Shown here: piece by piece, positions 5,151 to 58,407 of the stretch | Layout of the letters: each line of letters opens with the position of its first letter | Position numbering within the stretch: the stretch's first letter is position 1 | DNA from: Congeria kusceri | Taxonomy: Eukaryota > Mollusca > Bivalvia > Myida > Dreissenidae | DNA: 64,000 nt | Assembly: GCA_027627225.1 (NCBI GenBank) | Contig: CM051028.1 | Location: forward strand, 18,681,701 to 18,745,700 | Direction: 5' to 3' | Translations under genes and position numbers: made by a program | The notes under the pieces: generated by a model | The model's input: the letters and a program-made list of their open reading frames with translations, nothing else | Told to the model about the DNA's origin: nothing | Database searches by the model: none

Positions 5151-6270
5151 TTTGTCCAACAGTTTGTTAGGGATTTTATTCGCTTCAGAAAAGAATCAGT
5201 AGCTGTGACGGCTGATGTAAAGAGAATGTTCTATTGTTTTCTGGTAGATGAGAGACATAAGAGACTTTTTGAGAATTTTTTGGTACCGAGACAACAAACC
5301 AGACAATGAGTTAGTACAGGATGCGTGTTCACGTATTTGGTAATAAGCCATCACCTGCAATTGCGACTTACGCTCTAAGGAAGACTGTAGAGAACTGTGA
5401 CAGCGTCCTTAAAGGTTTCGAGTATAAAGATTTCTATGTAGATGATGGCATCACGTCAGTTTCAACACCAGAACAGGCCATAGATTTGATAAAAAACACA
5501 CAGCATGCCATACAAAACTGCAAATATTTGTTTGCACAAAATTGCGTCAAACTCGGACAAGGTTCTGGCAGCCTTCCCATCAGAAGATCTGGCTGAAGAT
5601 CTTAAACACCGAAATCTGTGTGCCGAAGATTTACCGATTCAGTGCAGCCTAGGCATGTATTGGAAACTACAATCCGACACGTTCACCTTTAAGATTTCAC
5701 CAAAAGACCAACCCTTTACACGAAGAGGAATACTGTCTACGATAAACAGTATTTTCGACCCAATTGGACTTGTTGCTCCAGTAGTTGTTACTGGTAAACT
5801 TATGTTGCGAGAGCTGTCTGAAGAGGTCGAAGATTGGGACAAAACTCGACCAGGTGACAGGCAACATCAGCGGGAGAAATGGAAAAATTCTCTGCAGAAC
5901 ATGGAACATTTGGAACATCCACGCCAGTATTTTAAGCGGTCAATGGAAATTCCCAGGAAAGAACTGCACATTTTTTCAGATGCCTCTGAAAAAGCCAGAG
6001 CCTCTGAAGTGTATGTAGCCGTTCCATCAGAAGATGGTGAACTGAAATTTAGTTTTGTGTTGGGAAAAGCTAAAGTAGCTCCGAAGAGTATACACACCAT
6101 TCCGAGACTTGAACTCTGTACGACAGTACTTTCCGTCCAACTTTATGAGATTGTCGCTGAAAATATTAACACAACCTTTGAGAGAGTGTGGTTCTATGCA
6201 GATAGCAATGTGGTACTAGGGTATATCCGTAATAAGATTCTACAATTATGTAAGCAACAGAGTTGAGAGA
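5150..6270 (+). pseudogene. BEL/Pao pol fragment: RT palm and RNase H/A17 region
   Basis: The RT catalytic motif YVDDG is encoded near 5435, preceded by FGNKPSPAIATYALRKT, typical of Pao RT. The frame changes near 5540 and continues with GILSTINSIFDPIGLVAPV at about 5730-5790, a hallmark of the peptidase A17/Pao domain. An RNase H-like part follows, with FSDASEKA at about 5970 and FYADSNVVLGYI at about 6195. The RT finger region between 5150 and 5320 is broken by stops. Confidence 0.75.
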
Positions 6271-6285
6271 ATACTCAAAACAAGT

Positions 6286-7965
6286 TTGTGTGATCAATGG
6301 CGATTCGTGCCAACGGATAAAAATCCAGCAGATTTTGCAACTAGACCGGTCGAGGTAGCAGACATGATGGGAAGTTGTTGGATAAGGGGCCCAACTCAGT
6401 TGCAAACGACAGTCAAGGATGAGTTGTTTCCCTTGATACTGCCAGATGAAGATAAAGAAGTTCGACCAATAGTGACGACAATGGCTACAAATATTGAGAC
6501 AAGAAATGGGCTAGGTTCTCACCAGTTTGATAGATTCTCGCAATGGTCAAGTCTGATTGCAGCGATTAGCTTGTTGCTACATCTGTGTCACAAACTTAAA
6601 ACCAGTTGTGGGTGTAGTGATTTGCACGAATGTCGTTTCAACGTTTCTACGAAAGAAGATGCCAAACATGTGATATTGAAAACAGTACAAATGGAGTGTT
6701 ACCCAGATGAAATTGAAGCTCTACGATGCACAAAACCTGTCCATAAAGGCAGCAAGTTGTTGAATCTTGATCCAGTATTGAACAAACAGGGCATCTTGTG
6801 TGTAGGAGGACGTTTGAAACATGCAAGTATATCGGACACTCAAAGGAGTCCAGTTTAATTATAAGACATGACCATGAAGAAGTGAAACATCAGGGTCGTA
6901 GTTTTACAAAGGGTGCGATACGAGATGCGGGTTACTGGATTATTGGATGCAAAAGGATGATTTCTTCTATGATACATGACAGTGTGAGTTGTCGCAGATT
7001 ACGTGGAAAACTTGAAGTCCAGAAGATGGCATATTTGCCGGCTGATCGCTTAGAAATGAGTCCTCCGTTCTCCTTTGTAGGCGTCGACACATTTGGCCCA
7101 TGGGAAATTTTGACACCAGAACCCGAGGAGGCAGCGCAAACAGTAAGCGATGGGCCATATTGTTCACCTGTCTAGCCACACGTGCTGTCAATATTGAGGT
7201 TATTGAAGAGTTGAGTTCTTCGTCATTCATAAATGCGCTTAAAAGGTTCATTTCTATCCGTGGTGAAGTGAAGGTGTTTCGTTCGGACTGTGGAACAAAC
7301 TTTGTAGGTGCTGTGAATGAGTTGGGAATAAATGTTATGAGTGGGTCAGTAAAGAAGTTTCTTAATGAAAGGGAGACAACTTGGATGTTCAACCTACCTC
7401 ATTCTTCCCACATGGGTGGTGTTGGGAAAGGATGACTGGAATTACTACACGAATTTTGGATGGTTTGCTGTTAACACATTCTAAAAGCCATCTAACTCAT
7501 GAAGTGTTATCTACATTTATGTGCGAAGTTTGTGTGATTATTAATGCGCGACGCCTGGTTCCTGTCTCCTGTAATCCAGATCACCCAGAAATCCTGAGCC
7601 CTGCCCTGTTAGTGAATCAAAAACCTAGTAAACTGGGAAATATACAGTTACATAGTGTTAATCCCAAGATCCAGTGGAAGCATGTTAAAGCCCTTGCCGA
7701 GCAGTTTTGGAAACGGTGGCGCTTGGAATACCTGCAGACCTTGCAGTCACGCCACAAGTGGAAATGTGACGTGCCTAACCTGAAGACCGGTGACGTAGTG
7801 CTGCTCAGGGAGAAGAAGCTGTGTCGCGATGACTGGCCCATTGGAGTAGTGCAGCAGATCCATTCAAGTTTAGTTTCAAGGGTGCGAACAGTTGATGTCC
7901 GCCATGACAAACTGTGTGTCTATAAACGACCAATATCAGAACTTGTGTTGTTGGTCTCCGACTAA
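6286..7965 (+). pseudogene. BEL/Pao integrase and C-terminal domain fragment
   Basis: The first frame (to 6858) contains WRFVPTDKNPADFATRPV, the end of the Pao RNase H region, and a zinc-binding integrase N-terminal stretch. The second carries the first core acidic motif, VGVDTFGPW (about 7078). The third has the second, FRSDCGTNFVGA (about 7280-7315). A shift near 7425 splits the MGGVW-ER segment holding the third acidic residue. From 7600 the C-terminal DUF5641-like region follows, with LAEQFWKRWRLEYL and GDVVLLREK. At least three frame breaks make the integrase non-functional. Confidence 0.75.
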
Positions 7966-11758: not shown

Positions 11759-14700
11759 ATGGGGAACAAGGCATCGATGCAATTACAGCAAGAAGAAATA
11801 ACGGACATTCAGACAGAAACAGGATGTAAGATTTTTTTTTTTTAATAATTAATTGTAAAAAAAATATTTGATCAATGACGACTTTAATTTTCAATCATGT
11901 ACATCTGGTGGTCATTGAAAATTTTGCCGATCACTGAAACCTTCAACTTTTTTTTAAGGGACTTGTTTGCAGATTTTTGCATTTTAAAGTATGCCATTAA
12001 ATGTCTACATATTTAAGCATCGGAACTATAAAGCTCAAGTATTATAACAAGAAAAGTAATAAGTAAAAAAAAAGGAAAGACAAAATTGGTCCCACCTAGG
12101 TTCGAACTTGGGACCTCCGGATTAAAAGGCTGTCGCCTTAACCACTGCCAGTTTGTCAATCTGTGAACAGGTCCTTTAAGGCTTTTTATTTTGCGTTGTT
12201 TGGTCCATTTGTCCTGGGTTTATTCGCCCTGTATTGCATTGTTGTGATGTGTTTTTCAAAAATTCCAAAAATTCTTGCACGTTTCCACAACTTAATAATT
12301 ACCCCAAAATTTAAAAAGCATCATGTAACAATGCAAAGTGGTTTCGGATTCTACTTTCAAAGTTGTCTGAAATTATTGACAGGCCTTTTTCTGACCTTTT
12401 TGGGAAAAAGTATTATGGTTGAATTGGGTAATTCACGACGTAAAATTTTCAAAATTAGGAAAAATTTGTATTGCTAAATTGTAAGTATGATGAAGAAATT
12501 TACAGTTTTAAATCAATAAATAAGAATTTAACAGCACTAATAATTTTAATTTAACTCTAAATTGTGATGAATACCTAAGCAAGTGCAGAGTTCTCGCTAG
12601 GATTTCAAAACATGGAGTCCAGGACTCCTTCCTATGAAAAGTTAGCGTCCCTGTATCTAATCGTAAAAAAAGACCCCTACCCCACCCACTTAAAAAACAA
12701 CTACAGCAACAATACTTTGTGTCAAAAATCTTATTTAAACAAACTGTTTATTAACAACCTGCAATTAAACAATTAAATAGGACTTTATTCATTAAAAAGG
12801 AACAGCAACATTTTTTTTAAATAGGAACAAAAAGAAAAGGACGACGACATTCATTTACTTTCACTTTCGACAAGTACTATAAACTGTCGCTAACTTTCAT
12901 TCAAATGTTGCCTCAGCCAAAGTATTTGCATATAATCCGTGTACAGTGATGATTTTTAATAGCTATTTTATTAATAAACACCAGTAGTTGTAGTTTTTTA
13001 ACAAAAGACGCACACTTCACGCGATAGGTGTACGCAAATTGTCAAGTTACACAGATTCCTCTTAATTCTTATAATTTGTATTCTGTTCATTTCGAATAAA
13101 CAAAAATTATATTGCCTTCTTAAAATTTGTAGCAATTTATTGAAAACGCGGGTGTTAATAACACATACATAACATAGCGCATACCTAACGGGAAAGTGTT
13201 ACAAATCACTTACGCCTTTACTAATTCAAATTAGATTGAGGGCGTGATAAACTTTCTATCGACGACACTCGTTTGCATACACGTTCTTATTGGCTGACTG
13301 GTTAGCTGTAGTTAAGCTTACTCCGCCTGCATCTTGATTTTATCGATAATTGACACACTGGTGCAGAAGGGGAATGTGTTTATTGCCGAGTAGGCGTTCT
13401 TTGTCTTGGGAAAATATGCGTACGCCAGAGAAAAGGGTTGCGTCCTAGAATCTAACACCGAGATTTATGGTGTCATTTTCATAAAAGTTGGCGTCGAATT
13501 ACGCGTTACCGAGAACTCGGCCAAGATATGCAACCAAGAGTTTGTAATCATATGCATGTCTTACGTTTTATAAGTATGTGTATAATTCTAAAAAAGCATC
13601 ACCAAATCTGACCAACTTTGCCAAAATAAAATTGTGGGATCTACTGTTTACATGATTTAGTTTTAATGATGTGTTAATAATAGGTCACGGAAATATGTGA
13701 TAACTTGAAAAAACATCTTTACCTCCTTATATTTAAATCCTTCCTTTAACTGACACATCCACTTGTGTAAATAACAAAAATATTTGCCCATAATTCATGT
13801 TAAATTTCATCATGATAGAGGACAAACAAATAGTTTTTCTTTGTGTTACCCATTTCATTACACAGCTATTAGAGTATTCTCTCCTGGTAAACAATGTCAA
13901 CGATAAAATTAGAGGATACTACTGTGCACTGTAATAATGTATTTTCTTGATTTTTCTGTTCGGGGTATTTAAAATTCTCAGTTTTGCTCAGAATAGAACA
14001 TTCTTATTTCAGTCAATGTGTCTTGATTTGTTGAGTTACTTGATATACATGTGCAAATTAAATTTAAGGAAGTATTTGGAAAACTGTTGAACAAAAATGA
14101 CTCGTGTTCATATTTACCTGTTGACACATAAAACCCTCTGGTAACATACAACATTTCATGATCGCTGTACTCCTTTGACAGTCTGTTTTCCTTTTTTCAG
14201 TTTCATGCAATCAGATTGTTCGGCTTTACAGCAGATTTACCAGACTTGATAAGAACAACAGGGGTGTCCTGACGTATGTATACTATACTTGTCACTATTT
14301 TTTTTACACATATTCAGGGATCCTCAGAGCAAAATATTTTCATAAGTCCAGTGTACTTACATGCAACAACATCATATGACATTGATTTAATTTAATAACT
14401 ACAAATGTCTGTTGAAATCCTAATAATTTTGGGTATTTATAGGGGGTTGATAAAGTAAATGTATTAAAACGAAATGGGCATTTTCTTATTTGAAATTACA
14501 TTTTGACATTTGAATTATGACTGGACATTTTTGTAGACATATTTCCTTTAAATAACTAAATCATGAATATTTAAAATGAAATTTGAATAACTTAAATTAC
14601 TCAATAAATTAATCAAATACAATATTTGTTTGTGTTTCAAATTTTTGAAAGAATTGATGCTAGTCCTTTAAAATATAAAGGTTCTTGGGTTATTAATCCC

Positions 14701-17700: not shown

Positions 17701-20700
17701 ATTACATTTTAACGTAATATTTACTTAAATATAGTGCAGTGATAGTTTCAAAGATTTTAATGGTAGTAATCTAACTAACCATTCAGCGTGGATCTAATTT
17801 GTATGATTCAAATCGCACTATTATGATGCTAGTTATATGCATATATAGACTGAATAAGAACTTGAATCACACCTGGACAAATATAATTCATACTAGGTTG
17901 TCAACTTGTATACAAGTTTGATAATTAAATGTGCTTATAAATATTTATCAGATTCATGGCATACCATGTCTTATGCAATAAATGGTTGCTGAATTTGATT
18001 TTGGTAACATCTAAATGCAATTAGTTATAAATTACAGAAATGTAAAACCAAAGCAACAGGGTCCCCCTGTAAACATATCAAACACAATGAGGCAGAGTTA
18101 CAACAAAGGGTCCACCTGTAAACATATCAATCACAATGAAGAAGAGTTACAACAAAGGGTCCCCCTGTAAACATATCAAACACAATGAGGAAGAGTTACA
18201 ACAAAGGGTCCACCTGTAAACATATCAATCACAATGAAGAAGAGTTACAACAAAGGGTCCCCCTGTAAACATATCAAACACAATGAAGGCGAGTTACAAC
18301 AAAAGTGTCCCCCTGTAAACATATCAAACACAATGAAGAAGAGTTACAACAAAGGGTCCACCTGTAAACATATCAAACACAATGAAGAAGAGTTACAACA
18401 AAGGGTCCCCCTGTAAACATATCAAACACAATGAGGAAGAGTTACAACAATGAGTCCACCTGTAAACATATCAAACACAATGAAGAAGAGTTACAACAAA
18501 GGGTCCACCTGTAAACATATCAAACACAATGATAATTAATGCTGCCCTTTCATAAACATACAAGTAATTTCACGATTTACACCCACAATTCACATTTCCT
18601 ATTTATATACAAGTGTGTCACTTTAGGTTCGGGAATTTTGTCATTCCCATTTGGCTATTTTGGGGATTGGGAATGGGTCCTTTATCAAACCCTGAAAAAT
18701 CACTGAATTAGCTCCAGATAACCCACTCAAAGAATATGCAAAAGGGTACCTGTAGTCCCTTACCTCTTGTCAAAGAGTCAGCACTTTATCCCTGACCATA
18801 TTGGAGAATCTTAAAGGATATTTTCAGAGCTTTAAATAGGAGTGAGCTTGAAAGGTTATTTTAATCCCATGATATTAAGTGTGTGAAGTATATAAATGTG
18901 CATGTAAATAAATACGTACTAGTAGTGTTTAATTAGATACATTAAGAAAATTGATTGCAGAGCGAAAATGATTGTTTTTTCAATGTTGACCAGTACCAGT
19001 ACCCCCAGTTTAATTTTCTTTATGGCACCTATACACCCTACTTACTATTTCTAAAGGGTATTTGCAATAGTTTGAAGGGTGTTTACGCAAATACCTCTCT
19101 TATCTGGAGCTCTGAGTGATGTGCAAAATCCAATGTTGGGTTATATTTTGATTATTTTTAATTAATCTGTTGATCTGTAATCATCAATAATCATGAACAC
19201 AATATTTACGTGTTTTATTGTCATTTGTAATTTTAACCATAATAAAATGTTAAATAAAATGGTAAACACACTCTAGTTGATTAGTTATTATGTTAACTAT
19301 ATACGCCCTTGCCTAAAATTACCCTAGTGTGTGTCTACAAGGCATATAATGTGGAACAGCGAAGTATGCCCAGCTGATATATTCAATGGGAAATACCCGC
19401 AATATATTGAATTTAGTGATGTGTAACCATTTGTCCATATTCCCAAGATGTCTTGAGAATATCCCTGACGTGATCCAAAACTGCCGTAAATGATTGGGAA
19501 ATGACCGAAAAGGTAATGTCACTTGAGCGTGCAAACAAGAACGAAATCCATGTTTTTCGTGCAAAAAATGTGTTTAGTTGAACAGGGGAAGGATTTATCT
19601 TTCTTTTGGTGTATATACATTTACTATAACGATATATATGAAAAAGTAACAAACACAAATCTCGTAAGTGATCTGGAATACCCCGAAAACTGTAGTCCAT
19701 TTACAATACCTGGAAGCCATTTGGGGTAAGTTGCACAATCTTTGGAAACATTTCCCTACATCGTTTTTTGTATTGTATAACGCGCACCAAGTTTTTAAAA
19801 CTGATTTTGGGGGCAAAAAAGTGTGCGTAATATATGACGTTTAATGGTATACTGTTATGGTAATGGAGCTTATATTATTGTCCACATTTGATGTAGATGA
19901 TTTATGGGTAATATAGAGATGGGACGATGTGAATTTTAAACACTTCATTCCACATGTGCACATTACGTTTTGAATTTGTGTCGAATGAACTAAAAAAAAA
20001 CATTGCAGAAAACCAAATGATAAAAAAGTGGGTGTGTATTACGCCCAATAGTCTGCCTTTATGCTAAAGGGAATTCAGTTAATCTGCAAAATTCTGCTGG
20101 GGCTGTACAAATGGTTAATGTTTGAGCTTGATAAAAGCTACACTGTTGATCATCTTTGCGAAGATTAAAATGCAGTTGTGTAGTGTAACGTCTTTGACAT
20201 AAGAAACCATCGTTTTGTTGAAAAACGTTATTAAGAAGATTATGTGTGTACAAATTCTTTGTGTTGATTGCGAGTGACATTTTTATAGTTACACATATCA
20301 GAGCTTAGTTGTAACGTTATGCAAACTAACATTGTGGTTGCTTTTGAAAGGAAAGAGCTACATTGTGCAAATATTTGGTTGCTTTTTGAATGAAGAACCT
20401 GAGGTATTTAAATTGAACCATATTACTTTCTTAATTTGAACCTTTTATATATTCTGAAATTTGCATCAGTTTTCAGAGTGGCAAAAAAAGTGAAAAATTA
20501 GAGAAGTATATTTTATGTTGTCTTTAAATTCCTTTATCTATGGCCAGTATGTATGGAACAGCTCATGCAAAATGAATATATTTCCCAATTAGCTGAGTTT
20601 GAGCATAAACAATCAAAAGCACCCCCATCAGTAATACATGCGAACTCCGAATGACAGCACAGTTGCAAGTCAGATATTTTTGTTTCACTTGAGCTACACT

Positions 20701-23700
20701 ATAAATAATTTCTTTGCAATAACATACTTTGGGATAATTCATTACGCACATTGATGTATTTCAGCCGTGAGGATTTCTTGTCAATATGCACATTGATGTA
20801 TTTCAGCCGTGAGGATTTCTTGTCAATATGCACATTGATGTATTTCAGCCGTGAGGATTTCTTGTCAATATGCACATTGATGTATTTCAGCCGTGAGGAT
20901 TTCTTGTCAGTATGCACATTGATGTATTTCAGCCGTGAGGATTTCTTGTCAATATGCACATTGATGTATTTTAGCCGTGAGGATTTCTTGTCAGTATGCA
21001 CATTGATGTATTTCAGCCGTGAGGATTTCTTGTCAGTATGCACATTGATGTATTTCAGCCGTGAGGATTTCTTGTCATTATGCACATTGATGTATTTCAG
21101 CCGTGAGGATTTCTTGTCAGTATGCACATTGATGTATTTCAGCCGTGAGGATTTCTTGTCAATATGCACATTGATGTATTTCAGCCGTGAGGATTTCTTG
21201 TCAATATGCACATTGATGTATTTCAGCCGTGAGGATTTCTTGTCAATATGCACATTGATGTATTTCAGCCGTGAGAATTTCTTGTCAATATGCACATTGA
21301 TGTATTTCAGCCGTGAGGATTTCTTGTCAATATGCACATTGATGTATTTTAGCCGTGAGGATTTGTTGTCAGTATGCACATTGATGTATTTCAGCCGTGA
21401 GGATTTCTTGTCAGTATCCACATTGATGTATTTCAGCCGTGAGGATTTCTTGTCAATATGCACATTGATGTATTTCAGCCGTGAGGATTTCTTGTCAATA
21501 TGCACATTGATGTATTTTAGCCGTGAGGATTTCTTGTCAGTATGCACATTGATGTATTTCAGCCGTGAGGATTTCTTGTCAGTATGCACATTGATGTATT
21601 TTAGCCGTGAGGATTTCTTGTCAGTATGCACATTGATGTATTTCAGCCGTGAGGATTTCTTGTCAATATGCACATTGATGTATTTCAGTCGTGACGGTGA
21701 GGATTTCTTGTCAATATGCACATTGATCAATGATGTATTTCAGCCGTGAGGATTTCTTGTCAATATGCACATTGATGTATTTCAGCTATGAGGATTTCTT
21801 ATAAATATGCACATTGATGTATTTCAGCCATGAGGATTTCTTATAAATATGCACATTGATGTATTTCAGCCATGAGGATTTCTTATAAATATGCACATTG
21901 ATCAATGATGTATTTCAGCCGTGAGGATTTCTTGTCAATATGCACATTGATGTATTCAGCCGTGAGGATTTCTTGTCAGTATGCACATTGATGTATTTCA
22001 GTAGTGAGAATTTCTTGTCAATATGCACATTGATGTATTTCAGCCGTGGGGATTTCTTGTCAATATGCACATTGATGTATTTCAGCCGTGAGGATTTCCT
22101 GCGTATTCCCGAGCTGGCCATCAATCCTCTGGGTGACAGGATCGTCCATTCTTTCTTCCTTGAGAGGTACATGTCTGAGAATAGTTGATTCTTTCAATGT
22201 AAGATTGTATTTAATATCATGAATTTTCATTGATAACAAATTAAAATATCTGAGGTGTGTCGTGGGAAACCCGGGCTTAATGCATCTGCGTATAGTAATA
22301 GTGTGACAGAAGTGAGAAAATGGGGCTTAATTAATGTGCATAAAGCGTCATCCCGGATAAGCCTGTGCAGTCCGCACAGGCTAATCCAGGACGACACTTT
22401 CCGATCTTATTATATTTTTTGTTTCAAGGAAGTGTCTTCTAAAGATAAACACTGAATGCGGAAAGTGTTGTCCAGGATTAGCCTGTGCGGACTGCACATA
22501 CTAATCCGGGATGACGCTTTATGCACATGAGTTAAGCCCGATTTTCTCACCACTACCAGTAAGAACAGTTGAATAAAAAATAACATATATTCCTTACGGT
22601 CAAACTCAATATTATCCATCAATAAAGATAATACTGGGTATGTGTCTTGTTAATCTAAAATCTTCATTTTCCAGCCAGATGGAGACAGTGAATTTCAAGC
22701 AGTTCATGAGCGTTCTCGCTCGATTCCGACCCACGAAGGTGAACGAAAACAAGAACAAGCTGAACACGAGAGAGGAGAAACTCAAATGTACGGATTTCTT
22801 TATTGATACAGGATTTTTTATCAAAGTTTTAAGAATGCTTTGGTGCTTTTCAGATTTGTGTGTGTGTGTCATGAAATCTTTGATCATCATGAAACTATAG
22901 CAAGAACAAATTGACTTGTGACCTTCATTACCATGATTTAGTACTTGACTTATATCCTCTCTTTATTCCCTGTTTAAGTGTTGGCTGCTCATATAAACCT
23001 ATACAAAATGTATGTGTTTCCATTACATACACTTAATTTGTTTCAGATTTTTTAAATCAGATAATTGTCTATAGAAGTAGAAAAACGTGTAAAATGCCTT
23101 TGTTTTGATACATATTGTGGTGGGACATCTATAAACTTGAATTTAAACACTTAACATTTCAGTCGCATTCAAGATGTATGACTTGGACGGTGATGAGAAG
23201 ATTTCTCGAGACGAGCTGTTGGCTGTACTTCACATGATGGTTGGAGACAACATATCTGAGGAGCAGGTAATTTTTTGTGTGGAAAATGGGACAAAAATAT
23301 TTGAGGGGCGTCATGGGAAAACCGGACTTAATGCATGTGCGTTAAGTGTCGTCCCGGATTATCCTGTGCAGTCCATACAGGCTAATCCGGGATGGCACTT
23401 TCCGCTTTTATGGCATTTTCTGTTTCAAGGAAGTCTCTTCTAAACATAAATTCACTGTAGGCGGAAAGTGCCGTCCTGGATTAGCCTGCATTAAATCCGG
23501 TTTTTTCACGACGCGCCACATTTTGAGTCAAAGTTAGGTTGAAAGTATGTGTTGAGGATATATTGATTTATATGATAGTGAAATGTTTCAAAATCAATAC
23601 AGAGATTTTTTAACATTTCATGATTACTTGTCCAGAGAAATAGTATTTACCAGGTAAGATACCAGGTAAGATAATGTGCCAGATATGTGTGTTCCTAGCT

Positions 23701-25998
23701 TCAGAAAAGTGACACAAAATTGACTCAATAAACCTCTGTTTTTACAAAAAATCTGGCGAAAACAATTCATTTGAAACTATTCAAACAGATAAGCATAAAA
23801 ATATTGGCATGTTTGTTAATAAAACAATTAAAAAATATGCCTGTATGTGCTGGTGCCCCTTTTCACCTCTCGTCCACCTTGTCTTGCAGCTGAACAGTAT
23901 CGCAGACAGGACGATCAATGAGGCTGATGAAGACGGAGACTCCATGATTTCTTTCGAGGAGTTCAAGAAGGTAAACTGCGTTGCCTGTCTTGTAGTTATT
24001 AACCATTTATTTAAGAGGTCGCGGTGGCGTAGTGGATATGGTGTCCGCCTACTAGCGATAGGGAGGTCTTGGGTTCAATCCCCACTCTGGGAGCGTACTT
24101 AAGATCTCCCCCAAAGACACCAAATACTGGTTCGAACCAGAAAACGGACTCGAGTGTCTCAAGAAGCCTTAGGCTTTCGATGCAATTGAGCTAAAAAATA
24201 TATAGGTTAAACTAAACTATTCATTAACCAAATACAATGTGTTTTTCAGACTCCACCTTTTGCTTGATTTAGTCTCTTAAAAAGACTTATTCACATTTTT
24301 TCGTATTTGTTTGACAATGCAGTACCATGCATTTCCTGAAAACAATTGAATGTGGATTAATCACCTCAATTTTTATTTTAATGAAATGTTTCTGAATGTT
24401 TCATACAATTACCTAATTTTGAGGGTAATGATGCTTGTTTGGTTGGAGATAATGGTATGATGTTACCAATCCCAAATCTGCATGCTAAAAATGAAAATGA
24501 TGGCAGGGACAATATGTGGCGCGTCGTGGGAAAACCGGACTTAATGCATGTGCATAAAGTGTCGTCCCGGATTGGCCTGTGAAGTCCGCACAGGCTAATC
24601 CAGGACGGCACTTTCCGCTTTAATGGTATTTTCTGTTTCAAGGAAGTCTCTTCTAAACATAAATCCACTTTAGGCGGAAAGTGCCGTCCTGGATTAGCCT
24701 GTGCGTGCACAGGCTAATCGGGGACAACACTTTACGCACATGCATTAAGTCCGGTTTTCCCACAACGCGCCTCATATATTTGTTAAATATTTAGCTGAAA
24801 TGTGTTTTTTTTCCAAATCATATTACTGTGTACCATTTTTATTCTATGTTTTCAGACGCTTAAAAATAAATTTTTCCAGCGTCTGAATACTTAGATTCAC
24901 AAAATAATAATTGATTTAAATCTTTCAGAAAACAAAGATTCTGAAAAAATTTCAAGTCGTAAAAATCGCAAATAAGCTACGCACTTGTTTGTATAGTTGT
25001 CTGCGTGTATAGCCGGAGGTGTTAATTTTTGACACGATGTTGTTCATTGAAGCCATAATATTGTCCCTAACTTGATAATTGACATGCAGAATGGTGCTGC
25101 AAATTTTTCGCAAGATGATATTGGCAAACAGTAGGAGAGACGTCTGTGATAAAACCTGGCGCTCCCTATGAACGGTTTTAGTATAATTGATGTTAATTGC
25201 CAATTATAGAATCAAATTATTTTTTTTCCGGAAGAGTAATAGGTTTTGATTGTTTTAAAAATGTGATTTATTTAAATATATATGTAAATGAATAGAATAT
25301 TTTGATTGGTTTGAAATTTTAAATCGTATGATTAGAATATTTTGATTGGTTTGAAATTTTATATCGTATATAATATATGGAAATAAACGTATATGATTAC
25401 CTCTTGCATTCATTCTTTCTTAATCAAGTGTGGTAATTGCATATTGGCTTAGGATATTTCGATATTGTCATTAATGGATAAGTTTGTTCGTCAGTATAGC
25501 AGTGCTGATGAAGTATTGCCTTTAGGCTGGAAGACTTGATGTCAACTCACCCTTTTTGAATTTGTGCATGCATGCTTGATCATGTGTGTACGCACAAGCA
25601 TCTGCGTGCATGCATTTAAAATGAAAATAAATATCAGATGTTATTAAATGCGTTTATTATTCTTCATCATGAAACATAACAACACACATTAACATATACT
25701 TATGTCCGTATATGTGGGTAAGTCATTTATCGTTACAAATGACAATTCGCCCATCGTAGTTGCGTTGTATATAGAGTTGACATAAATAATCCGTCCAAAA
25801 ACATACAATCACATTTTAATTCCTTTTCTGAAAGTGTCTGAAAATATAGAAGCGCAAAAAATAATTATTTCAACAGATTTTGTGGTTGTCTGAAAACAGA
25901 ATACATACGGTATATAGTTGTACATGTTTCTTCTTTATTTCAAGGTAATGGAGCGTGTTGATGTGGAGCAGAAAATGAGTATACGATTTCTCAACTAG
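11759..25998 (+). CDS. CHP1: calcineurin B homologous protein 1 (EF-hand), complete, 7 exons
   Basis: Exons: 11759-11825, 14201-14273, 22086-22166, 22675-22787, 23163-23266, 23890-23970, 25945-25998. All borders are GT-AG, phases match, and the join gives 190 residues plus stop (vertebrate CHP1 has 195). Residue 2 is Gly in MGNKAS, the N-myristoylation site of the family. EF-hand 1 (loop about 39-50) has Arg at position 5 and Asp at position 12, so calcium binding is unlikely. IPELAINPLGDRI, diagnostic for CHP, starts at residue 54. EF3 (118-129, DLDGDEKISRDE) and EF4 (159-170, DEDGDSMISFEE) are canonical. The end, VDVEQKMSIRFL, is family-typical. Known role: an obligate cofactor of plasma-membrane Na+/H+ exchangers, also acting in vesicle traffic. 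Intron 2 is 7.8 kb; its 3' end is an amplified copy array of the exon 3 acceptor. The last acceptor is AAG rather than CAG. CHP2 and other calcineurin-B relatives are less likely given the sequence. Confidence 0.95.
11958..12175. mobile_element. TTAA-flanked TIR element with tRNA-like insert, copy 1
   Basis: Left end GGGACTTGTTTGCAG and right end CTGTGAACAGGTCCT are imperfect inverted repeats, each next to TTAA. The left 130 bp resembles the left part of the element at 55165. A tRNA-like sequence fills the right half. It lies in CHP1 intron 1, 132 bp after the donor. Confidence 0.65.
12087..12153 (-). tRNA. tRNA-derived sequence, probably not a functional tRNA
   Basis: On the - strand an A-box-like TGGCAGTGGTTAAGG and a B-box-like AGTTCGAACC sit at tRNA spacing. 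The anticodon arm pairs poorly and the loop reads TTTTAAT, so I cannot assign a decoding identity. Its place inside a TIR element argues for a captured or SINE-type tRNA promoter. Confidence 0.5.
12176..14200. other. rest of CHP1 intron 1
   Basis: Apart from the palindrome relative at 12590-13010 this is AT-rich intronic DNA with no recognisable gene, RNA or repeat. The 104-codon frame at 12163-12477 has no recognisable motif. Confidence 0.5.
12590..13010 (+). repeat. diverged single copy of the palindrome arm
   Basis: GTTCTCGCTAGGATT, CATGGAGTCC, CCCACCCACT, ACTTTGTGTC, CTAACTTTCAT and TTTTAATAGCT appear in the same order as in the left arm at about 9797-10090, with many differences. There is no mirrored partner here, so the palindrome at 9411 was built from a pre-existing dispersed repeat. 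Confidence 0.65.
14698..15420 (+). mobile_element. hairpin-headed satellite element with CGTCCGTCCG leader
   Basis: The head is a C-rich/G-rich hairpin (CCCCCACCACGAAGCGGGAGGGGG), then TTATAGGAATGCCC and CGTCCGTCCGTC. Four to five units follow, 120-157 bp each, marked by TGTCCGCTCCATATCTCC, TTGAAGGATTTTCATGAAAC, GACGATGTGCAGAAGGCATG and AAGGTCAAGGTCACACTTGA. This is a widespread bivalve repeat (established knowledge). It lies in CHP1 intron 2. Confidence 0.65.
15421..16149. other. CHP1 intron 2, unassigned
   Basis: It contains a short run of GGGTTTTCCCGGCGGG-type imperfect palindromes at about 15555-15600 and no recognisable gene. Confidence 0.4.
16150..17302. mobile_element. hAT-like non-autonomous element with 5-bp target duplication
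   Basis: Left end CAGGGCATAGCC and right end GGCTGAGCCCTG are inverted with two mismatches, and GATAC occurs directly outside both ends (16145-16149 and 17303-17307). Subterminal AAGGAGAAGT-type motifs recur in mirrored orientation. No transposase frame is present. CAGGG termini point to the hAT superfamily. A 5-bp duplication is shorter than the usual 8 bp but is known for some hAT groups. It lies in CHP1 intron 2. Confidence 0.65.
18050..18533 (+). repeat. 49-bp minisatellite, 10 units
   Basis: Each unit carries GAGTTACAACAAAGGGTCC, then ACCTGTAAACATATCAAAC and ACAATGA. The first four units alternate between a CCCCCTG...CAAACAC type and a CCACCTG...CAATCAC type, so amplification partly proceeded as a 98-bp dimer. 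A 60-codon frame through the array is a by-product of the repeat. It lies in CHP1 intron 2. Confidence 0.9.
18534..20745. other. CHP1 intron 2, unassigned
   Basis: AT-rich DNA with short frames of at most 95 codons on both strands; none has a recognisable domain. No RNA gene or repeat could be defined. Confidence 0.5.
20746..22085 (+). repeat. 42-bp minisatellite made of the CHP1 exon 3 splice acceptor
   Basis: About 31 units of 42 bp precede exon 3. Each reads CACATTGATGTATTTCAG, then CCGTGAGGATTTC, then TTGTCAATATG with small variants. The TTTCAG|CCGTGAGGATTTC part equals the true acceptor and first 13 bases of exon 3, which follow the last unit without a gap. Two units carry an extra GATCAATG, one has a 6-bp insert, one lacks a T, and three have TTATAAATATG, which places a TAA in the exon frame. 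Because 42 is divisible by three, long open frames (332 and 343 codons) cross the array on both strands; these are artefacts. Confidence 0.97.
22074..22087 (+). promoter_or_regulatory. native 3' splice site of CHP1 exon 3
   Basis: TGTATTTCAG|CCGTG is the acceptor that joins exon 2 (ending ..CTG AC) to exon 3 and restores Thr47-Arg-Glu-Asp-Phe. The pyrimidine tract is short, and it is the same as in the decoy copies upstream. Confidence 0.85.
22251..22553. mobile_element. palindromic MITE, copy 1 (plus fragment)
   Basis: A short outer fragment (GTCGTGGGAAACCCGGGCTTAATGC) is followed by a full copy from about 22313. The full copy has the outer arms TTAATGTGCATAAAGCGTC / GACGCTTTATGCACATGAG and inner hairpins of the GGATTAGCCTGTGC-type. 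It lies in CHP1 intron 3. Confidence 0.85.
23303..23518. mobile_element. palindromic MITE, copy 2
   Basis: Starts GAGGGGCGTCATGGGAAAACCGG and ends CCGGTTTTTTCACGACGCGCC. It lies only 36 bp after the CHP1 exon 5 donor; the right arm is partly deleted. Confidence 0.85.
24015..24225 (+). mobile_element. tRNA-derived SINE, full length
   Basis: The head holds an A box (TGGCGTAGTGG) and a B box (GGTTCAATCCC), the internal promoter of RNA polymerase III. The body follows with GGTTCGAACCAGAAAACGG, GTGTCTCAAGAAGCCTTAGGC and the tail AGCTAAAAAATATATAGG. The same body occurs at 63690. It lies in CHP1 intron 6, 45 bp after the donor. Confidence 0.8.
24517..24774. mobile_element. palindromic MITE, copy 3 (near full length)
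   Basis: Outer arms GGCGCGTCGTGGGAAAACCG and CGGTTTTCCCACAACGCGCC match over the ends. Each half has its own hairpin around CTGTG..CACAG, and a single-stranded centre with GTTTCAAGGAAGTCTCTTC separates the halves. It lies in CHP1 intron 6. Confidence 0.9.
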
Positions 25999-26258
25999 AC
26001 ACCTACAAGACATCTCAGTGCACACCAGGAAATGAGGATATGGATGCTCTACTGGACTTCTATGAGACAATTTAGTACATACCAAGAAATATATGATATA
26101 TGATTCCTTAATAAGACACCTCAGTACCTACCAAGTAAAGTATAAAATTCCTCAAACTAGACACCTAGAAGACACCTCAGTTCATACCAAGAAATGTTTG
26201 TGATTCTTGAAACTAGCCACCAATGAGACACCCGAGTATACACTAAGAAACATTAAAG
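25984..26258 (+). repeat. degenerate tandem repeat starting on the CHP1 stop codon
   Basis: The segment TTCTCAACTAGACACCTACAA, which holds the CHP1 stop, is followed by about four diverged copies of 45-65 bp. These share TTCCTCAAACTAGACACC, AGACACCTCAGT and ATACCAAGAAAT. The array makes up most of the predicted 3' UTR. Confidence 0.7.
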
Positions 26259-27741: not shown

Positions 27742-28352
27742 TAATGCCTCTGGCATCTTGATGCAGGAGGCATATAGTGATCGTCCCGTCCGTCGGTCCA
27801 TGACAAGGTTAAGTAGATTTTACCGTTTCGTCTAGCACCAACACCGCTTACTACAACACTTTGATACTTACACAGTTGTTGCTTATGACATTCCCTATCC
27901 ACACCTATATCACCCAACCTATCTTTGACCTTGATGTTGACCTAATTTGGACTTATAATAATTCATAAGTGCCATTTCTTGGTTAACCAGATTTTTTACT
28001 GTTTCGTCTAGCACCAGCGCTGCTTGCTACAGCACTAAGATATTTACACAGTTGTTACTTATGACAGTTCCCAATCCACCCATATCACCCAACCTCACTT
28101 TGACCGTGACCTAATTTGCACTGAGAATAATTCAAATGGGCTGTTTGTTGGTTAACTAGATTTTACCATTTCGTCTAGCACCAACACCACTTGCTACAAC
28201 ACTTGGATACTTACACAGTTGTTACTTATGACCATCCCCAATCCACCCATATTACCCAACCTCACTTTCACATTGACTGTGACCTAATTTGGACTAAGAA
28301 ATGCGCTTCCCAGCACCAAACGGGGGCATGTGTGTTTATCAAACACAGAAGC
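27742..28352 (+). mobile_element. hairpin-headed satellite element with CGTCCGTCGGTCC leader
   Basis: The head is a hairpin, GCCTCTGGCATC-TT-GATGCAGGAGGC, then ATATAGTGATCGTCCCGTCCGTC. Three core units of about 160 bp follow, with GATTTTACCGTTTCGTCTAGC, TACACAGTTGTTACTTATGAC and ACCCAACCT..TTTGACC. The 3' end is CCCAGCAC..CGGGGGCATGTGTGTTTATC. The same core and 3' end lie inverted at 57303-60965. Confidence 0.7.
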
Positions 28353-28735
28353 TTGTTTTTTATACATTACCTAAGGCATCACATATTGGTATTACTACAG
28401 CCTTGTTTGCAATGATCATCTTAAAGATAAAGATACTGGTGAAGCACTTAAATCCGGACTCGTTTGCTGGTTTTTGGACGATTTCTCGGGATAATTGCAT
28501 CTCTCGAACAAAAAAAAGTAAAACATAAGTAAGGTTTAATCTGAATCTTTGGTCAAAATCTTAGTGGAATCTGCTATCGAAAAGCCACTGAATGATGTGT
28601 CGAGAAAAGGCCTGTAACTCGTATCTAAATACAGCTGGAGAGTACCTAAATTCGAACACTTAAAAAAAATGTTTTATTAAAAACAAGCACAATAAAAGTA
28701 AACATTCAACTACAACTTGATCGTCGATATTCTTG
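28353..28735. other. intergenic DNA
   Basis: No gene seen. AGTACCTAAATTCGAACAC near 28645 is roughly mirrored near 29130, which may mark another decayed TIR element. Confidence 0.35.
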
Positions 28736-28891
28736 TTATTCTTCTTTGTTTACATTGTTCTGGTGTTAACTTTCAACATTTTCTCTGTTATTCTTCTTTG
28801 TTTACATTGTTCTGGTGTTAACTTTCAACATTTTCTCTGTTATTCTTCTTTGATTACATTGTTCTGGTGTTAACTTTCAACATTTTCTCTG
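28736..28891 (+). repeat. 52-bp tandem repeat, 3 units
   Basis: Three nearly identical units start at 28736, 28788 and 28840, each with TTATTCTTCTTTG, ACATTGTTCTGGTG and AACTTTCAACATTTTCTCTG. One substitution (GTTTAC to GATTAC) marks the third unit. Confidence 0.95.
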
Positions 28892-35535: not shown

Positions 35536-54757
<19,222 letters not shown>

Positions 54758-57302: not shown

Positions 57303-58407
57303 GCCCAGAAGACAAACAAGACACTGTTCGATAAACACACATGCCCCCAGTTAGTGCTGGACAGCCCATTTGAATTATTCTAAGTCCAAATTAGGTCAAG
57401 GTCAAAGTATGGTTGGGTGATATGGGTGGATTGGGAATGGTAATAAGCAACAACTGTGTAAGTATCCAAGTGTTGTAGTAAGCGGTGCGTGTGCTAGATG
57501 AAACTGTAAAATCTAGTTAACCAAGAAATAGCCAAATTAGGTGAAGGTCAAAGTGAGGTTGGGTGATATGGGTTGATTGGGGATGGTCATAAGCAACAAC
57601 TGTGTAAGTATCCAAGTGCTGTAGTAAGCAGTGCGTGTGCTAGATGAAACTGTAAAATCTAGTTAACCAAGAAATAGCCAAATTAGGTGAAGGTCAAAGT
57701 GAGGTTGGGTGATATGGGTTGATTGGGGATGGTCATAAGCAACAACTGTGTAAGTATCCAAGTGCTGTAGTAAGCAGTGCGTGTGCTAGATGAAACTGTA
57801 AAATCTAGTTAACCAAGAAATAGCCAAATTAGGTGAAGGTCAAAGTGAGGTTGGGTGATATGGGTTGATTGGGGATGGTCATAAGCAACAACTGTGTAAG
57901 TATCCAAGTGCTGTAGTAAGCAGTGTTGGTGTCAGATGGTAAAATCTAGCATACATGCCATAATTTTTTCAGGTCAAAACGGGACATTGACAAAAAATCG
58001 GCGAGACATTTGACATTTAAGATAGACACCTCAATATTGTTATTTTGTCGCAGGGTCCATGAATCACGATCGCTATATTACATGTCATATCATTCATGTA
58101 CATAATACATGTATACCACTGTTGAACTCGTATTACTGATTAGATAATTAATGAAGCATACAAATTTTGATTTTTAAAATGTATATTATATATGCTTTGT
58201 TCTTGCAAAAACGGCGGGAAATTTTCCTCATGCACGTCGTGCCTACGTGCGTCAAATGTTAAAGACCTTCTGCACAGAGCATTATTTTCTGTGGTAATTG
58301 TTTAATGTTATACAGTTACCAAAGAGGTGTGAATAAATACACACAAAGGTGATCAGTTTGCAGTAGAACTAAGGTGACAGGTTAAATAAATTTCGAATTG
58401 CGTTATA

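Follow-up and report, generated by a model that had tools for sequence, protein, structure and literature searches.

The DNA analysed here is a 64,000-nucleotide stretch from the mussel Congeria kusceri (assembly GCA_027627225.1, contig CM051028.1, positions 18,681,701 to 18,745,700 of the forward strand), hereafter the window. It holds the gene for the EF-hand protein CHP1 on its + strand and, directly in front of the third coding exon of this gene, a long 42-bp minisatellite whose last unit is the boundary between intron 2 and exon 3. The seven coding exons of CHP1, separated by GT..AG introns, join into 573 nt encoding 190 amino acids without an internal stop. The exons and the array are arranged as follows, with the 31 acceptor copies upstream of the real one referred to as decoys.

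11759 to 11825, + strand: CHP1 exon 1, coding part from the ATG
14201 to 14273, + strand: CHP1 exon 2, followed by intron 2 (7812 bp)
20739 to 22101, + strand: 42-bp minisatellite of 32 units, of which the last (22060-22101) is the real intron 2/exon 3 boundary; delimited by Tandem Repeats Finder (TRF), a unit split and inspection of the edge units
20747 to 21670, + strand: units 1-22, homogeneous part, mean 0.77 edits to the consensus; decoy acceptors end from 20764 to 21646
21671 to 22067, + strand: units 23-31, diverged part adjoining the exon, mean 4.0 edits
21688, 21743, 21785, 21827, 21869, 21918, 21959, 22001 and 22043, + strand: ends of the decoy acceptors of units 23-31
22086 to 22166, + strand: CHP1 exon 3, 81 bp, phase 2 at both ends, adjoined by the donor GTACAT
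22675 to 22787, + strand: CHP1 exon 4
23163 to 23266, + strand: CHP1 exon 5
23890 to 23970, + strand: CHP1 exon 6
25945 to 25998, + strand: CHP1 exon 7, coding part with the stop codon

An earlier reading of the letters alone (the sequence-only reading) had named the gene CHP1 and the acceptor that of exon 3, and both identifications stand. Among solved structures the joined protein matches p22/CHP1 (2e30, 248.7 bits) above CHP2 (2bec, 182.5 bits) and the best calcineurin B chain (a fusion, 4il1, 156.3 bits), and the similarity to CHP1 is full-length and collinear. EF-hand matches above cut-off comprise PF13499 at residues 107-175 and PF00036 in two stretches, the N-terminal EF-hands not being separately listed. 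An annotated, partial protein of the zebra mussel Dreissena polymorpha (P0006) is 94% identical to CHP1 over 167 amino acids and reads ...GVLTREDFLRIPEL... at the exon 2/exon 3 junction, the same residues as the joined coding sequence. The junction splits the codon of Thr47, exon 2 closing with AC and its third base coming from exon 3; this fixes the frame, and the peptide REDFLRIPEL is uninterrupted in 102 of 120 CHP1 relatives (120 of 1206 matched).

Searching the assembly (1.549 Gb, 1071 contigs) with the protein located CHP1 exons 1-6 at a single place, together with four weaker matches elsewhere (34-55% identity) that represent relatives. Exon 3 with its flanks likewise gave one locus only among the best 40 of 3733 candidates, 39 of the 40 being a repeat of intron 3, so that neither search found a second CHP1 copy or haplotig. 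The intron 3 repeat itself (22312-22553) is a palindromic sequence of ~242 bp that matches both strands, resembles a miniature inverted-repeat transposable element and occurs at 39 other places among those best 40 candidates with 84-86% identity.

The array at the exon 3 acceptor

TRF called the array at 20739-22098 with a period of 42, 31.9 copies and 93% matches, and splitting it at the anchor CACATTGAT gave 32 units, the real boundary being the last one. The 31 units before it are exactly 42 bp long in 27 cases, the others measuring 48, 49, 49 and 41 bp. The consensus unit joins 26 nt from the end of the intron, TCAATATGCACATTGATGTATTTCAG, to 16 nt from the start of the exon, CCGTGAGGATTTC(T/C)TG; the first unit differs from this consensus at two positions and the last at one. 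Since the last unit contains the real acceptor and exon 3 continues from it without a gap, the array is contiguous with the authentic boundary. Both the 42-bp minisatellite with about 31 decoys and its derivation from an intron/exon border, as put forward by the sequence-only reading, are therefore correct, with small corrections: the start it gave, 20746, does coincide with GCACATTG of unit 1, but the array begins seven bases further upstream, and the part of the unit derived from the exon measures 16 nt instead of 13, with a single C/T mismatch at its position 14. Among the six acceptor and six donor boundaries of CHP1, only that of the exon 3 acceptor recurs as a boundary in the window, with 33 matching stretches; the remaining ones match themselves and, at most, distant stretches of 14 nt (two for the exon 1 donor, one for the exon 5 acceptor).

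Divergence is confined to one edge of the array, the exon-side units 23-31, with 4.0 edits against 0.77 in units 1-22. In total, the 31 units fall into 14 types, and the presence of one type on both sides of a block (I J K K I) suggests an exchange of several units at once. This composition bears on whether the array could be an assembly artefact, much shorter or absent in the animal. All our evidence comes from a single assembly, but with 14 unit types along 1.36 kb an artefact looks unlikely; the diverged units at one end and the presence of other minisatellites of similar size in the assembly argue in the same direction, and we regard this explanation as highly improbable.

At the level of local sequence, most decoys are indistinguishable from the real acceptor. 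The YAG trinucleotide is kept at all 32 sites (28 CAG, 4 TAG), and over positions -20 to +3 the decoys equal the real site in 17 of 31 cases and show at most one mismatch in 26, where the ungapped count gives decoy 29, which has lost one T, a low score. The exact 23-mer TGTATTTCAGCCGTGAGGATTTC occurs 20 times in the assembly (19 decoys and the real site), all within the array, and the same number of times in the window; because the reversed control pattern had no match in the assembly, a chance origin of these copies is excluded. The idea that the spliceosome faces near-identical acceptors is thus upheld; the statement that every unit is identical to the true acceptor holds for YAG and fails for the exact 23-mer, which is present at only 20 of the 32 sites.

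Use of a decoy would have consequences that depend on its position. Entry at decoys 1-23 would shift the frame by one (units 1-22 in the +1 frame), decoys 24-27 are in frame but run into a stop, and decoy 28 is again out of frame, so that by reading-frame analysis all of these 28 would yield a premature stop. Decoys 29, 30 and 31 keep the frame and meet no stop before the end of the protein; their use would insert 42, 28 and 14 residues, respectively, after Thr47, an insert that presumably would fall in the first EF-hand of CHP1. If these three were used at a useful level, the array would generate CHP1 isoforms. This is very unlikely: pieces of the repeat peptide were found in none of the 120 CHP1 relatives, the zebra mussel model included, the frame is kept as a one-in-three accident of a 42-bp unit, and the 28 more upstream decoys are unusable for such isoforms. 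A coding role for the 346-residue open frame that runs over the upstream units was also rejected. This frame was judged a by-product of the 42-bp unit: the opposite strand holds an open frame of equal length, and as a query the frame retrieved no relatives, as no candidate among the 7998 scored reached E ≤ 0.001.

Boundary-spanning arrays in other genomes and their expected frequency

The CHP1 array is a long, clean example of an already known phenomenon and not the first of its kind, although the sequence-only reading knew of no described case of such shape. Minisatellite-like tandem duplications of an intron-exon boundary beside the genuine boundary have been termed mirages in amphioxus, where they are described for the globin genes BflGb6 and BflGb9 and for Adh3 (PMC3087553), with TnC and PGBD5 as further cases (PMC3902484). 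The CHP1 array shows the same traits: a unit of minisatellite size (42 bp × 31.9), a boundary with its splice signal inside the unit, and contiguity with the authentic boundary. In mirages, units at the cluster boundary are expected to escape homogenisation; in the CHP1 array the units at the exon-side edge are diverged and those at the other edge are not. As at CHP1, the repeats of BflGb6 cover the 3′ end of an intron and the 5′ part of exon 2, and AG/GT signals are retained in many, though not all, of the amphioxus repeats (PMC3087553, PMC3902484). The cases differ in unit size (150-160 bp in BflGb6 and 10-72 bp in Adh3, against 42 bp here), in unit number (6 and 3 in two BflGb6 haplotypes, against 32) and in the host, a cephalochordate in one case and a mussel in the other. 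The data on the amphioxus arrays suggest to their authors that normal splicing goes on undisturbed (PMC3087553, PMC3902484), and in the globin study such arrays are put forward as a possible origin of new introns (PMC3087553).

Human CBS offers two further parallels. The insertion c.844_845ins68 has an exonic part of 16 nt, as does the CHP1 unit, but unlike the CHP1 array it consists of one extra copy (PMC7490669). The 31-bp variable number tandem repeat c.1444_1467+7(16_21) is a polymorphic minisatellite with a unit that, judging from the coordinates, crosses from exon to intron; it lies on the donor side with 16-21 units, whereas the CHP1 array lies on the acceptor side with 32 (PMC2630376). 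Among the papers listed in searches of the open-licence literature, no mollusc case of a boundary-spanning minisatellite was seen, and the CHP1 array extends the mirage phenomenon to a mussel.

The frequency of minisatellites in this genome suggests that the CHP1 array needs no special cause, because where such arrays are common some should span a boundary by chance. Twenty spaced 10-kb stretches of the assembly (200 kb) contained 12 arrays with a unit of 20-100 bp and at least 5 copies, and the window contains 4 of this class, the CHP1 array included and one (28734-28872) being poor, with a 60% match. The 12 sampled arrays sit in 7 of the 20 stretches, and neighbours can share a unit (two of 44 bp in stretch L024, two of 29 bp in L027); this lack of independence makes the Poisson interval of 6-21 too narrow. 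Extrapolation gives ~93,000 arrays in the assembly and, for 200,000-400,000 splice junctions and random seeds, ~500-1,000 junction-spanning arrays, a figure that is an order of magnitude at best, as the junction number is assumed and selection is ignored. The same density suggests that further boundary-spanning arrays exist in this genome. One sampled array (L015), considered splice-like for its TACTAAC and CAG, was set aside: by eye it resembles a piece of a tRNA-derived element, and it is not placed at an exon.

Origin of the array and choice of the acceptor

Taken together, the CHP1 array is probably a mirage-type minisatellite that arose from the CHP1 boundary, its last copy serving as the working acceptor through exon definition and its upstream copies being mostly silent. 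The make-up of the units, the frame and the protein of the zebra mussel indicate that a 42-bp segment, 26 nt of it from the end of intron 2 and 16 nt from the start of exon 3, was tandemly duplicated and expanded to 32 units, presumably by slippage or unequal exchange, while the copy adjoining exon 3 remained the functional acceptor.

On general principles of splicing, the spliceosome would mostly take this last copy, pairing it with the exon 3 donor across the exon. We infer exon definition because local sequence does not single out the real site and because the last copy alone sits 81 nt from the donor; the exon body with its donor at that distance is unique to it, and the decoys would give an exon of 123 to 1402 nt. 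The long upstream intron of 7812 bp also makes exon definition a natural candidate. The 31 upstream copies would then be mostly silent, and any leakage, which is expected to be rare, would produce premature-stop transcripts from copies 1-28 and the extended proteins from copies 29-31.

Several observations weigh against this reading. With approximate frequencies, the score of the real acceptor is 3.8 and 20 of the 31 decoys share this value, while two decoys score higher (4.0 and 4.9) and nine lower. The longest AG-free stretch upstream of an acceptor belongs to decoy 1 (69 nt, against 40 nt for the real site), and therefore a rule favouring the first AG or the first transcribed site would pick the wrong end of the array. 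The donor-like word GTRAG occurs at 28 sites in the array, and small pseudo-exons within it, formed with these words and with a donor-like site in unit 23, are conceivable. Furthermore, that the last acceptor is the one used in this species is deduced from the protein and from the gene model of a relative, and the duplicated acceptor of human CBS 844ins68 causes alternative splicing (PMC7490669).

The donor-like site in unit 23 (21689-21705; GT at 21697) was created by a 6-bp insertion and, with a score of 10.4, is stronger than the GTGAGG of the other units.

Other possible selectors of the real site were considered and rejected. Local acceptor strength does not qualify, as both the score and the -20 to +3 sequence of the real site are common to many decoys; across intron 2, 41 of 379 AGs counted score above the real acceptor, 30 of them outside the array. 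Nor does a longer AG-free zone, since decoys 24 and 28 have the same 40 nt and decoy 1 has more. Masking of the decoys by RNA structure was unsupported in the one stretch folded, 21900-22200 (z -0.18; 41 of 100 shuffles folded equally well or better).

The local match between decoys and real site, the premature stops that 28 of the decoys would bring, and the CBS precedent would all suit a different role, in which a sizeable share of transcripts uses decoys and is mostly degraded after a premature stop, array length thereby setting CHP1 output. We consider this unlikely: CHP1 was found at one place only, so a large loss of output should be selected against. It is quite improbable, too, that the 32 copies, with 17 decoys identical over 23 nt and differing mainly in donor distance, act as a natural ladder of acceptors whose copy number varies between animals and sets the CHP1 dose through unproductive splicing. 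The effect of array length on splicing that the sequence-only reading had proposed is hypothetical.

Under the favoured reading of a silent array with a working last copy, CHP1 separates the sequence of a splice site from its position, as near-identical acceptors stand mostly at 42-nt steps and one of them is correct. Knowing which acceptors are used would allow exon definition to be weighed, in a native gene, against rules based on scanning or on the first site.

Other features of the window

Two smaller arrays lie in or beside CHP1. A second minisatellite of intron 2 is found at 18058-18532 (49 bp × 9.7), and past the CHP1 stop codon, at 26113-26250, there is a 56-bp × 2.5 array that includes 27 nt with 93% similarity to the part of exon 7 around the stop codon; the end of CHP1 itself may have seeded this small array, which would be the second to arise from the gene.

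Elsewhere, arrays with units of 167 bp (27807-28300) and 146 bp (57386-57925) appear by eye to be reverse complements of one family. At 5493-7965, matches to Peptidase_A17 and DUF5641 mark the remains of a Pao/BEL-type retroelement, and transposase-like DNA-binding domains (HTH_Tnp_Tc5, CENP-B_N) lie at 37592-38014 on the - strand. Also on the - strand, 55292-55363 matches tRNA above the Rfam gathering score and represents a tRNA gene or a tRNA-derived element.
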